A stretch of DNA of 34,864 nt from Atribacteraceae bacterium. Its GTDB lineage: Bacteria > Atribacterota > Atribacteria > Atribacterales > Atribacteraceae. Location: positions 1 to 34,864 of the forward strand of contig DATIKP010000075.1 of the NCBI GenBank assembly GCA_035477455.1, written 5' to 3'. Numbering within the stretch: position 1 is the stretch's first letter; the number at the start of each line of letters is the position of its first letter. Position numbers and translations under genes: made by a program. Below are positions 1,690 through 34,864 of the stretch, piece by piece. The notes beneath the pieces are model-generated. The model saw only the letters and a program-made list of their open reading frames with translations, had not been told where the DNA came from and ran no database searches.

Positions 1690-3711
1690 ATGAAGGGATA
1701 CCGGGTCCAGGTTGCGTTACCGGTACCGGTGTATAGAACCTTTACCTACGGTATCGACAGCCGTCTCGCTGGAAAAATCACCTTGGGGAGCCTGGTCGAA
1801 GTGGAGTTGGGCCAGAGGCGGCTTCATGGGGTCGTTACTGCGCTTACTGGTGAAGAGGATGAGCGGGATCTCAAGACGGTGATCGACCGGCTTCCGGTGA
1901 GCCCTTTACGAGCCTGGCAACTCCGCTTGGCGGATATACTGGCCAAACGGTACTTTGCGGCTCTCGGGGAAGTTTTGGGTCTATTTATTCCTCCCTACCG
2001 GCCGGCGTGGGGGGTCTTGTCCGAGTGGCGCGTCTATCCGGGAACAGTGGAAGAATCAGCCGTTCCGGTCCCCCGGGAAGGGCAAAACCTTTTTCTTTGG
2101 AAAGAAGAACATCACCTTCGGAAACAGGATATCGAGCGGCTCGTCAAACGAGGAGCCATTGTTCTTGACCGGAAACCAACCGGTTTTCCATCTGTGCAGT
2201 ATGAGGCGACGAAGAAACCGGAGTTTCGGTGGTCTTCGATACCGTTTCGGGAAGACCGGGAGGCTTTTTCGGCCCATGTCGTCGATCAGTGTCTCAAGAC
2301 CGGGGAAAAAGCCTTTTTTGTTTTTCCGGATATCGAATCGCTCGATCGATCGATAGGGTTTTTACATAAGAGGTTTCCCTCCCTGCGGCTCATCCGTTAT
2401 GATCGCCGGCTCTCCGGACGCGATCGTTTCCTCTGTTTTCTTGAGATCGAAGGGGGTAATTACGATATTCTATGCGGAACTCACATCGCCTGTTTTCTTC
2501 CGGTGGATCATGTTTCATTCCATATAATTTTTGATCCGGAAGAACGCGGCCATGTTTCTGACCGGTTTCCCCGCTATGAAACCCTCCAGGTTCTCCGGGA
2601 GAAGATCGCACTCACGGGGGGCTTACTGCAGGTTGTCGGGGTGAACCCCGGATTGCACCTCACTTATGAGCTCCGGGAACGGCGATTTACCGAACACCGG
2701 TTTACCTCATCGGTTCCTCTCCGGACCGACCGGGTCATTTATTCGGTCGTTGTGGAAAAAAAAAGAACCATTCTATCCATGACTGCCCGTCTGGCTATCG
2801 GGAAAGTGCTTGAGCAGGGCGGGTGTGCGGTTATATGGACCCAGAAAAGCGGCTATGCCGCAGCGTTGGGATGCCGTGACTGCGGCTTTTATTATTCCTG
2901 CCCGAAATGCGAGACAGCGTATCGTTATTCCCGGGAAAAAGTCGTCTTGAATTGTCCCCTCTGCGGTTTACGCGATGAGCCCAAGAGGATCTGTCCTAAA
3001 TGTGGGGGGGGTTGGTTCGACCCCTGGGGCGTTGCGGTGGAAAGTGTTTTTGAAGAAATCAGGAAAGGATTTCTGGGAGTGGAGGTACGCTTAATCGAAG
3101 GCAAAATGGAAGGCCGGGCCGGAGACGCGGAAATTCTGAAGCCGGGCATTCTGGTCGGAACGTCGGCGATTCTTGCCGAGCCTCTCCTCCGGAAAAGTGA
3201 ACTGATGGCCCTGATTTCACTGGATGACTGGTTGAGAATTCCTGATTTTCAGGCAAGGGAGAGATTTTTTCTCGCACTGAAAAAAATCCTAACCTATCTC
3301 GGTACCGAAGTTGCCTCACGACCAAGCTTGATTGTTCAAACCTCTCCCATGTTCGAGCAACGGGTGTCTTATCTCTTCGAATCAGTAGGCACTTTCTTCG
3401 CCCATGAATTGGCCAAGCGCAGAAAAATTGCTTACCCGCCGTTCGCGGGATTGGTCAGGATCATCGTTCAAGGAGGGAATACGGATAGGCGGAATCGGGT
3501 TTGTAATGAATTGACCTTGCGGATTCGAGAGGCTGGTTTTTCCGCCTTCGGACCTTATCCGATTGCCGGTATCCGGAAGAGGGGAGCGGTTTCCGATGAA
3601 GTCACGGTTCACTTCCCCTTGGAAAGAAACGGGCAGTTGTATTCACTTGTAGGCCGTATTCTTTCCACTAGGAGAACCGGCGGTGTCCGTATCGATTTTG
3701 AAGTATTCTGA
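1690..3711 (+). CDS. priA: PriA-like primosomal protein, degenerate helicase domain
   Basis: PriA restarts collapsed replication forks. The protein (673 residues from ATG 1690, which has CAGGAAA at good spacing; an upstream ATG at 1669 overlaps the coaBC stop and lacks a ribosome site) keeps the N-terminal 3'-DNA-end-binding region (VALPVPVYRTFTYGID), the paired zinc-binding cysteines (CxxC clusters around 2870-3010) and the C-terminal region (RRKIAYPPFAGLVRI). The ATPase motifs are gone. Where GxTGSGKT belongs (about 2227-2275) there is RWSSIPFREDREAFSAH. Where the DEEH box belongs (2533) there is DPEERG. The QVAGRAGR motif VI is replaced by a KKILTYLGTEV-like stretch. The frame is open throughout, so this looks like a maintained non-helicase PriA, as known in Deinococcus and mycobacteria, and not a recent pseudogene. 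Confidence 0.88.
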   Translation: MKGYRVQVALPVPVYRTFTYGIDSRLAGKITLGSLVEVELGQRRLHGVVTALTGEEDERDLKTVIDRLPVSPLRAWQLRLADILAKRYFAALGEVLGLFIPPYRPAWGVLSEWRVYPGTVEESAVPVPREGQNLFLWKEEHHLRKQDIERLVKRGAIVLDRKPTGFPSVQYEATKKPEFRWSSIPFREDREAFSAHVVDQCLKTGEKAFFVFPDIESLDRSIGFLHKRFPSLRLIRYDRRLSGRDRFLCFLEIEGGNYDILCGTHIACFLPVDHVSFHIIFDPEERGHVSDRFPRYETLQVLREKIALTGGLLQVVGVNPGLHLTYELRERRFTEHRFTSSVPLRTDRVIYSVVVEKKRTILSMTARLAIGKVLEQGGCAVIWTQKSGYAAALGCRDCGFYYSCPKCETAYRYSREKVVLNCPLCGLRDEPKRICPKCGGGWFDPWGVAVESVFEEIRKGFLGVEVRLIEGKMEGRAGDAEILKPGILVGTSAILAEPLLRKSELMALISLDDWLRIPDFQARERFFLALKKILTYLGTEVASRPSLIVQTSPMFEQRVSYLFESVGTFFAHELAKRRKIAYPPFAGLVRIIVQGGNTDRRNRVCNELTLRIREAGFSAFGPYPIAGIRKRGAVSDEVTVHFPLERNGQLYSLVGRILSTRRTGGVRIDFEVF

Positions 3712-31928: not shown

Positions 31929-32521
31929 TCAGGCGGCGTCCACATTCCGGCGAACTCCCTCGACGAATATAACTCCTTCCACCACTTCTGCTAACCGGGG
32001 TACTCCATCCAGCTTCCTCCATCTCTTCCCGGCACTGAGGAAGAGTTGGTGGACCATGCTGAGCACGGTAACCCGGGACCCGCAGTTCTTGGTCTTGTTG
32101 GTTCTTGGTCTGACTGTAGCCAGGGTGGATTCCACGGGGTTGGTGGTTCTCAGGTGCTTCCAGTGTTCCGCCGGGAAGTCATAGAAGGTAAGGAGCACCT
32201 CCCGGTCTTTTTCCAGGCAGTCGGTGGCCTTGGGGTATTTGGCCGGGTACTTGTGGAGGAAGTGATCGAAGGTTTTCTCGGCATCTTCCCTGGTTTCGGC
32301 CATCCCGATCTGGGGGAGGTCAGCCTGGGCTTTCCCCTGCACACTCTTGGGGAGATAATTGAGCACATTGGCGGTCTTGTGCATCCAGCAGCGCCGGGGA
32401 TGGGTTTCGCCCGAGGGCTTCCGGAAAATCGTTGGTGGAGATCCCCCTTCTGGTAGAGCCAGGGGATGGGCTCCTCCCCTCCCTTTCTTTGGTCCCGTAC
32501 CCGGCACTTAAAAGGCAACAT
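31929..32521 (-). pseudogene. IS256-family (mutator-type) transposase, internally deleted
   Basis: The minus strand encodes a C-terminal block of about 150 residues: PRRCWMHKTANVLNYLPKSV, MAETREDAEKTFDHF, EVLLTFYDFPAEHWKHLRTT and NPVEST with the catalytic Glu, ending at a stop at 31929. These are IS256-family hallmarks. Before it only a scrap of the N-terminal region survives: WLYQKG and, one frame over, ISTNDFPEAL (family LYLKGISTGDFQEAL). Roughly 190 residues holding the two catalytic Asp residues are gone, and there is a frameshift in a G-run. No intact copy or clear terminal repeats are in the window. Confidence 0.85.
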
Positions 32522-32579
32522 TGACTTAGACGAAGAGGCAGTTGAAAAAAATCGCGAAGCGGAGTTGGGCGAAGATTAA
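32517..32579 (+). pseudogene. 3' remnant of a possible antitoxin gene
   Basis: A 20-codon frame, NIDLDEEAVEKNREAELGED then TAA, has no start and is cut off by the IS256 remnant. The NIDLDEE opening resembles the RTNIDLDEE stretch of some VapB antitoxins, and the frame sits just ahead of a VapC-like gene. The rest does not match well. Assigned mainly by position. Confidence 0.28.
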
Positions 32580-32840
32580 GATCATTGTTGATACCTCGAT
32601 CTGGATTGAATATTTCAAAAACCAGCCTGAAACTGTAGCTATAATTGAAAAGGGACTTTTAGCCGGAACAGTATATATGGTTGGACCGGTTGTGGCGGGG
32701 CTTTTGCATAGGGTTAAGACCGAAAAAGAATTAAAGAAGTTAACCGATTGTCTAGATGCGGTTCCATTTATTGAAAACAACTTACAGGACTGGCGATTAG
32801 CCGGTATAATATCTTTTGTCCGATTTTACACAAACGGGCT
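32542..32840 (+). pseudogene. VapC-like PIN-domain toxin, 3' truncated
   Basis: The first 95 or so codons read as a PIN-domain ribonuclease: KIIVDTSIWIEYFKNQPE with the first metal Asp, a GTVYMVGPVVAGLLHRV stretch where the conserved Glu of the AELL motif is Gly, KTEKELKKLTDCLDAVPFIE and a W-x-x-A helix. Similarity stops near 32840, before the last acidic residues of the PIN site; the frame then reads into the 5' part of the next gene as unrelated sequence. The only in-frame start is TTG 32542. The loss of the Glu and of the C terminus makes it inactive. Confidence 0.7.
32781..32810 (+). promoter_or_regulatory. Candidate promoter inside vapC remnant
   Basis: CTTACA (32781-32786), 18 bases, then a perfect TATAAT (32805-32810), ending 48 bases before the helicase ATG. 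A plausible promoter for the helicase gene, formed in or kept from the toxin remnant. Confidence 0.45.
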
Positions 32841-32857
32841 AGCAGGGTGGAGAGTCG

Positions 32858-34864
32858 ATGGCAAGCGAGGTTGCTGTGCGCCAGGGTCAAGTAGTAAGGG
32901 GTCCTCTCTTCAACGAGCCGATGCGCGTAGAGACAGTGTGCGCCGGCGACGATGGAGTTTGGACCCTTGGTCTCGTAGGCACCCGGACTGAGCGCTTTCG
33001 CCGGGTCACACTGACTGCCCGCGACCTTGCCGGGCTCACCATCCTTAATGCTGGTTTTAAGTTTGATGGAGATGCCCGGCTCCTCGGCCTGGGCTTGCAG
33101 GCTCATGCCCTCGGCATCGCTTATGAGTTCGATCCCTATTTTGGCCTCTCCATTTCCCGAGTCGATCCCTTGCCCCACCAGCTGGAAGCGGTCTACAACT
33201 ACCTTTTGAAGCTGGCCCGCGTCCGCTTCCTGCTCGCGGACGACGCCGGCGCCGGCAAGACCATTATGGCCGGGCTGCTCATCCGTGAGTTGCAGCTGCG
33301 GGGTATGGCCGAAAGGATTTTAGTCGTCTGTCCGTCCAACCTTTCCTTCCAGTGGCAGCGTGAACTCAAAGAAAAGTTCGATGAGAAGTTCATGGTCCTC
33401 AAGGGAGGAGAAATCCGTGACCAGTTTGGGGTAAATCAGTGGCTGGAGCAGAAAAAGGTCATCACCTCCCTGGACCTGGCCAAACGCCACGACATCCTTC
33501 CCGGACTCAGGCAGGTCCACTGGGACCTGGTCATCGTGGATGAGGCCCACCGCATGTCCTGGACGCCCCCGGCGCGCAAGACTGCGCGGTACGCTCTTGG
33601 CGAACTCCTCCGGGACACCTCGGATCACCTCCTGTTGCTCACCGCCACCCCGCACAAGGGCGACCCGGCCAACTTTACGCTGTTTTTACAGTTACTGGAC
33701 GCAGACACCTACGCGGATGTCCGCTCCATCCGGGAGGCCATGAATCAGCGCCGGGCACCGTTTTACCTGCGCCGTACCAAGGAGGCCATGGTCTATTTCC
33801 CGCAGCGCCGTCCCGATGGTACGTGGGTGGCCGAGAAGATTTTCACGAAGCGCATCCCGAACACCGTTGACTTCCAGATCGATGGATCGGAATTCGATCT
33901 CTACGGGGAGATCACCAGATTCGTGAAGCGCCAGAGCGCCAAGGCCGCCGCAGGGGGCGATGATCCCCGCGCCCGCGCGGTCGGCTTCCTGATGTCCCTC
34001 TACCAACGCAGGCTGGCCTCCAGCACCTACGCCATGCGTCACAGCCTGGATAACCGCGCCCGGAGGCTCGAGGAAGGCCTGAAGCGTGTCCAGGAACTCG
34101 CGCGGCTGGCCCCGCCCGACTTGCCGGACCCGGATGAGATCGAGGAGATGGAGGAGCACGAGCGCGAGCGCCTGGAAGAGATGCTCGAGGCCATCACGCT
34201 CGCCGGAAACGCTGCGCAGATTCGCGAGGAGATTGCCGAATTACGTCAACTCGCCGGGCAGGCGCAAGCCGTGGAAGGCACCGGCTCAGAAGCCAAGCTG
34301 TCGAAGCTTAAAGACCTGCTCCACCAGGAGGGCTTCTTCGACCACCCGGACAGGCGCCTTCTCCTGTTTACCGAGTTCAGGGATACGCTCGACTACCTTA
34401 TGGGCAAGCTCAAAGGCTGGGGGTTCCGCGTCGGTTGCATCCACGGCGGCATGAAGCCCGGCTCGCGCGACGAGCCCGGCTCACGGCTCTACTCCGAACA
34501 ACAGTTCCGCGAAGGCGCCATCCAGGTGCTCGTAGCCACGGAGGCGGCGGGCGAGGGCATCAACCTTCAGGTCTGCAACATCCTCTTCAACTACGACATT
34601 CCCTGGAACCCGAATCGCCTTGAACAGCGCATGGGACGTATTCACCGTTACGGCCAGAAGAAGGACTGCCTGATCTTCAACTTTGTGGCCACGAACACCA
34701 TCGAGGGCCGCGTGCTCCAGCGGCTACTGGAGAAGCTTCAGGAAATCCGGGACGCGCTCGACGACGACGCGGTGTTCAACGTCGTCGGCGAAATCCTGCC
34801 GGCGGCGCATGTGGAACGCATCCTGCGGGACTACTATGCCGGGAAACTGGGCGGCGCCGACCTT
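32858..34864 (+). CDS. SNF2-family helicase, DrmD-like (partial, runs off window)
   Basis: An open frame of 669 codons from ATG 32858 (GGTGGAGAG just upstream) to the window edge without a stop. A small N-terminal domain (GQVVRGPLFNEPMRVETV, about 1-60) precedes two helicase lobes: LPHQLEAV (Q-motif-like, 105-112), LADDAGAGKTIMAGLLIRE (motif I, 127-145), LVIVDEAHRM (DEAH, 228-231), LLTATPHKG (motif III), a coiled insertion (about 400-470), LLLFTEF (motif IV), ATEAAGEGINLQ (motif V, 560-571) and EQRMGRIHRYGQ (motif VI). This is the pattern of large SNF2-type proteins such as DISARM DrmD, which act with methyltransferases in phage-defence loci. No partner is visible. Codons are much richer in G and C in third position than the core genes, which points to horizontal acquisition. 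Confidence 0.85.
   Translation, partial: MASEVAVRQGQVVRGPLFNEPMRVETVCAGDDGVWTLGLVGTRTERFRRVTLTARDLAGLTILNAGFKFDGDARLLGLGLQAHALGIAYEFDPYFGLSISRVDPLPHQLEAVYNYLLKLARVRFLLADDAGAGKTIMAGLLIRELQLRGMAERILVVCPSNLSFQWQRELKEKFDEKFMVLKGGEIRDQFGVNQWLEQKKVITSLDLAKRHDILPGLRQVHWDLVIVDEAHRMSWTPPARKTARYALGELLRDTSDHLLLLTATPHKGDPANFTLFLQLLDADTYADVRSIREAMNQRRAPFYLRRTKEAMVYFPQRRPDGTWVAEKIFTKRIPNTVDFQIDGSEFDLYGEITRFVKRQSAKAAAGGDDPRARAVGFLMSLYQRRLASSTYAMRHSLDNRARRLEEGLKRVQELARLAPPDLPDPDEIEEMEEHERERLEEMLEAITLAGNAAQIREEIAELRQLAGQAQAVEGTGSEAKLSKLKDLLHQEGFFDHPDRRLLLFTEFRDTLDYLMGKLKGWGFRVGCIHGGMKPGSRDEPGSRLYSEQQFREGAIQVLVATEAAGEGINLQVCNILFNYDIPWNPNRLEQRMGRIHRYGQKKDCLIFNFVATNTIEGRVLQRLLEKLQEIRDALDDDAVFNVVGEILPAAHVERILRDYYAGKLGGADL

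Follow-up and report, generated by a model that had tools for sequence, protein, structure and literature searches.

The open reading frame at the right-hand end of the window (the whole 34,864-nucleotide stretch analysed, which is the complete contig C75 of a 2.16-Mb Atribacteraceae genome, G000, in 174 contigs) is hmaA, the first gene of an Hma (helicase, DNA methylase, ATPase) defence operon. We hold with high confidence the joint reading that the locus is Hma, i.e., Type-1 BREX-related, that the helicase is its first gene, and that the operon was gained horizontally and is probably impaired. The first-pass annotation had allowed for either a known or a new system; the system type is already known, and what is new is this copy, probably a failing member. 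A near-complete Hma operon is hereby placed in Atribacterota, and the identity of the helicase at the contig end, ambiguous until now, is settled.

The frame opens with an ATG and runs for 669 codons up to the contig end without a stop. The following features were identified in it:

32858 to 34864, plus strand: N-terminal part of hmaA with the SNF2 helicase core; 669 residues out of about 1146, the frame being truncated where the contig stops
33239 to 33262, plus strand: helicase motif I (Walker A), DDAGAGKT, by motif reading
33539 to 33550, plus strand: helicase motif II, DEAH, by motif reading
34625 to 34657, plus strand: helicase motif VI, QRMGRIHRYGQ, by motif reading

Together with motifs Ia (VVCPSNLSFQW, at 33323), III (LTATPH, at 33638), IV (LLFTEFRDT, at 34361), and V (ATEAAGEGINLQ, at 34535) these make up the complete SNF2/SF2 set, and Pfam models for Helicase_C (1e-24) and SNF2-rel_dom (8e-18) matched the protein. 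The earlier description of a GC-rich 669-codon frame with a full SNF2 motif set was thereby confirmed, the GC content being 61.6% as compared with 52.1% in positions 1 to 31600. Since 320 of 323 near-invariant columns in an alignment with more than 60 homologues are kept, the frame is a genuine gene rather than a chance occurrence. Among the PADLOC profiles HmaA gave the best match to the part of the protein in the window (475 bits, 9.5e-143), followed by DrmD (390 bits) and BrxH (352 bits).

The window itself ends before any partner gene, as had been noted. Homologues of the C-terminal half of HmaA, of HmaB, and of HmaC, however, all matched the start of a second contig of the same genome, C17, and the DUF1156 and DUF499 partner genes that had been suggested were both found there:

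C17, 3 to 1082: C-terminal part of hmaA with the NOV_C nuclease-like domain (by homology; NOV_C 1.3e-22)
C17, 1808 to 5399: hmaB (DUF1156 methylase), split frame (DUF1156 2.5e-23; PADLOC HmaB on both parts)
C17, 5863 to 8683: hmaC (DUF499 ATPase), split frame (HmaC 2.7e-51 and 1.6e-26 on two frames)

The gene order on C17 is the end of hmaA (NOV_C), MNT, HEPN, hmaB, a four-helix ORF of the 23S_IVP type, and hmaC. Pfam matches comprise DUF1156, DUF499, NOV_C, HEPN, and NTP_transf_2. Start and stop codons overlap at hmaA/MNT, MNT/HEPN, and HEPN/hmaB. The MNT motif GSx10DxD and the Rx4H motif of the HEPN protein (RFRYTH) are both intact. The NOV_C part holds the motif GYDITS..LIEVKG, by which it is PD-(D/E)XK-like and a predicted nuclease.

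In 61 of 62 homologues the distance between the window end and the C17 start corresponds to 138 residues (about 414 bp absent from the assembly), and the two sequenced parts of HmaA together keep 388 of 391 near-invariant columns. A homology search of the genome found no third contig with the missing 138 codons. The first host gene past hmaC on C17 is degT, encoding a DegT-type aminotransferase. In a family-mate within Atribacterota (G004), whose HmaA is identical to that of an "Atribacteria" record, which supports the host phylum, a single gene separates yraN from degT1, and the latter shares 76% identity with degT of C17. The gene in between (L129; G004 contig C82, 6668-7933) presumably encodes a glutamate dehydrogenase, so that the site lacks the Hma operon yet is occupied by another gene and is not a clean empty site. 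Because yraN and degT lie one gene apart in G004, C75 and C17 very probably join, as suggested by complementarity and synteny; given this join, the acquired segment, bounded by yraN and degT, is about 11 kb long.

On C75 the order trmD-rplS-lepB-rnhB-yraN is followed by mobile-element remnants and then by hmaA:

31929 to 32507, minus strand: truncated IS256/Mutator-family transposase remnant (Pfam Transposase_mut 5.7e-19, profile positions 248-377 of 379)
32542 to 32991, plus strand: partial VapC-like PIN toxin frame (NCBIfam VapC 3.7e-08, below the cut-off, profile positions 1-68 of 125)

The transposase remnant, which covers the C-terminal third of the profile and also matched NCBIfam IS256 (6e-31, below the cut-off), forms the left boundary of the acquired DNA. 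The VapC/PIN frame matches the N-terminal part of its profile only and overlaps the helicase start. These two features bear out the decayed mobile elements that had been seen ahead of the helicase. The GC content of the acquired segment is 60-62%, with about 52-53% on both sides, and host genes and host GC return past approximately C17:9100. What had been proposed as the entry to a defence island is thus a defence locus, but one consisting of a single operon with one toxin-antitoxin-like pair and not a larger island.

Lesions in hmaB and hmaC were mapped by tblastn using HmaB and HmaC relatives against C17. Homology to hmaB is unbroken to C17:2593, where a 507-bp stretch (2594-3100) stands in place of 27 bp and leaves the reading frame of hmaB undisturbed. 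Within this insert lies a gene for a Y1/REP-type transposase (Pfam Y1_Tnp 8e-05), and a REP-like inverted pair marks the ends of the insert. Homology then goes on to C17:3277, followed by a 64-bp insertion with the palindromic repeat CCCTCTCCCTCTGGGAGAGGG, past which the reading frame is shifted. The hmaC frame is shifted at about C17:6195 by one extra base, shortly past the Walker A motif. Judged from these lesions the operon copy is probably impaired. It could alternatively still function, provided that HmaB is active in the form of two chains or is produced through frameshifting, and that the shift in hmaC reflects a sequencing error. The split HmaB may work as two chains, as motif I lies in the first part and DPPY in the second, and the conserved HmaA columns (388 of 391), the transposase insert that leaves hmaB in frame, and the intact MNT and HEPN motifs are in favor of function, as is the hmaC lesion, which amounts to a single G within a short run and may have arisen in assembly. 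The hmaB shift, however, is due to a 64-bp insertion and not to a homopolymer, and most relatives with hmaB inside the locus have it as a single frame of about 1000 amino acids. In the operons of the close relatives L007 and L018 all three core genes are single frames. We therefore regard a functional operon as unlikely and retain probable impairment as the preferred reading.

Over the part in the window, HmaA shares 85-87% identity with homologues from Deltaproteobacteria and other phyla, whereas TrmD is only 45-49% identical to that of the same non-Atribacterota genomes (61-70% inside the family); in the HmaA tree the window sequence sits among rows of several phyla. This difference in sequence identity shows that the operon segment was horizontally acquired from distant bacteria, its place being between yraN and degT. 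Misassembly or misbinning of a piece foreign to this genome was considered, as hmaA is highly conserved from phylum to phylum, a situation in which assemblers can mis-join, and both contigs break inside it. This explanation was rejected as very improbable because both host junctions lie within contigs (the left one on C75, the right one on C17) and the outer flanks are syntenic in G004. More generally, the helicase stays 78-88% identical as the operon moves between phyla, and the genes between hmaA and hmaB are exchanged.

The same three core genes, hmaA, hmaB, and hmaC, on the same strand define the Hma system of PADLOC, which has a patchy distribution across many phyla (Payne et al., 2021; PMC8565338). 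The present locus differs from that description in having MNT-HEPN between hmaA and hmaB and the 23S_IVP ORF between hmaB and hmaC, in the splitting of hmaB and hmaC, and in its repeat and transposase insertions. According to a later paper, Hma was renamed Type-1 BREX-related (BR) and comprises a helicase with an active C-terminal PD-(D/E)XK-like domain, a DUF1156 N6-methylase, and a DUF499 ATPase, all of which have counterparts here, with auxiliary HEPN/MNT, OLD-TOPRIM, and Schlafen effectors; anti-phage activity of HmaA is also stated there, for copies other than this one (Rakesh and Krishnan, 2026; PMC12839542). In that classification the C-terminal PD-(D/E)XK domain marks Type-1, an N-terminal HKD nuclease or DUF3780 marks Type-2, and PglZ marks Type-3 BREX-related systems. 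By its motif the C-terminal NOV_C domain of HmaA would carry the Type-1 mark, and no Pfam match to HKD nuclease, DUF3780, or PglZ was found in the window helicase or the scanned C17 operon genes. With regard to the BREX genes pglZ and brxC as neighbors of the helicase, the C17 operon genes contain no PglZ, and the ATPase is DUF499/HmaC.

Type 1 DISARM has a related SNF2 helicase core in common with this locus, and the helicase had been called DrmD-like at first. Its matches to DrmD are strong (390 bits for PADLOC, 347 bits for NCBIfam), and a SNF2 helicase with a methylase partner would fit DrmD. In the profile search that had been proposed, however, HmaA outscored DrmD, as it also did for a full-length relative (562 vs. 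386 bits, PADLOC), and the NCBIfam DrmD score lies far under its cut-off of 610 bits, the query protein being truncated. The neighbors are DUF1156 and DUF499 genes, i.e., a methylase and an ATPase other than those of DISARM, and the MZB/DUF1998 domain of DrmB, which had also been suggested as a check, had no match in the genome with PF09369, although the same search matched in 8 of 14 genomes. Because of the profile scores and the absence of MZB/DUF1998, and given the neighbors, DISARM membership was rejected and an identity as DrmD is hardly credible. Least credible of all is a housekeeping RapA-like SNF2 protein, which was rejected since, although RapA is the best solved-structure match of the helicase (7e-38), the NCBIfam RapA score is 177 bits against a cut-off of 576 and the operon partners and NOV_C fit Hma.

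For the Hma operon a mechanism can be proposed from the literature (PMC8565338, PMC12839542) and the domains. HmaB would label the host's own DNA by adenine methylation. HmaC, a DUF499 ATPase that is Cdc6/ORC-like, would help to scan and recognize invading DNA, and HmaA would translocate on DNA, with its PD-(D/E)XK-like NOV_C domain cutting unmarked DNA. The HEPN protein, a putative RNase held back by MNT, would serve as a last-resort suicide arm. HmaB was called an m5C enzyme by Payne et al. (PMC8565338), but its DPPY motif, the PADLOC description, and PMC12839542 point to adenine.

In 49 relative loci hmaA is followed by hmaB on one contig, and in many of these by hmaC; 39 of the 49 carry at least one frame of at least 100 amino acids between hmaA and hmaB. 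Pfam matches among this cargo include OLD-like ATPases (AAA_21/AAA_15), Schlafen AlbA_2, Fic, UvrD helicases, OLD-TOPRIM, DUF1016/YhcG, PRTase-CE, DUF3644, NYN, and also DUF3800. A gene with a Fic domain overlaps the hmaA end in several loci (L005, 4974-6023; L009, 7670-8719; and others) and is thus recurrent cargo; the L005 copy matches PADLOC SoFic. NADAR is fused to the HmaB N-terminus in L002 (8732-12391) and L006 (17760-21470), each preceded by a PRTase-CE gene, and a DprA-like domain (DNA_processg_A) is fused there in L049 (12052-16053). Nuclease accessories are already described in PMC12839542, whereas its main text contains neither "Fic domain" nor PRTase nor DUF3644, and DUF3800, NADAR, and DprA, found here beside or fused to hma genes, are not named in what is available of its section on auxiliary effectors. 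Relative to these parts of that paper some cargo types may be new for the system.

A conserved 324-amino-acid protein is encoded between hmaB and hmaC in L018 (8920-9894), L011 (11411-12376), and seven other loci. It had no confident Pfam match, its C-terminal part resembling HsdR_N with an E-value of 0.0055 at best, and its N-terminal part looks EVE-like by eye; it is possibly a modification-dependent nuclease. A structure prediction was of low confidence (pLDDT 61), and a profile search against solved structures found nothing.

A search of 80 relative loci was made with two palindromes chosen for their presence in the C17 operon. Copies numbered 22 inside hma frames (465 kb) and 1 outside (683 kb), an enrichment with a Fisher p of 3e-08 per copy and of 7e-04 at the locus level, the latter being the fairer figure because the copies cluster in 8 loci. 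Every copy of both palindromes in the G000 genome sits in the hma locus, and by coordinates the second repeat is confined to it in the genomes of L004, L025, and L063 and the first in the genome of L072. The genome of L081, however, contains the first repeat as a normal element in high copy number (53 copies), so these are ordinary repeats of some genomes that are carried along. Insertions from different repeat families fall in the same loops (HmaA core ~857-874; HmaB core 257 and ~319-338), and palindromic repeats are in frame there in several phyla. We tentatively propose, as a reading somewhat short of even probability, that these fixed loops are recurrent landing sites for at least three palindrome families, some with a whole enzyme, which are kept in frame and travel between phyla. 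Since in-frame repeats travel with it, the operon would record its earlier hosts, and it may gain domains in its DNA-recognition region. Host-foreign repeats inside hma genes could be used to trace the genomes that a defence system has passed through. Protein-coding palindromes are known from the Rickettsia palindromic elements, which are likewise short repeats that lie in frame within coding genes (PMC3733652). Here, in contrast, the same loops of one mobile operon are used in different phyla, and the repeats are rare or absent elsewhere in several host genomes. The available portions of PMC12839542 do not mention in-frame repeat insertions.

HmaB core position 257 was also observed as a shared in-frame insertion point: it holds the Y1 transposase with its REP palindrome in G000 (L090, on C17), a nuclease-like 175-amino-acid segment in L025, and, in L014, L063, and L072, palindromes belonging to other repeat families. 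Elsewhere in G000 (L091; contig C102, 1-3026) a Sacsin/HATPase-like gene accompanies a frame that is similar to the C-terminal part of HmaA (29% identical) and cut by the contig end, and this gene pair is a possible second defence locus.
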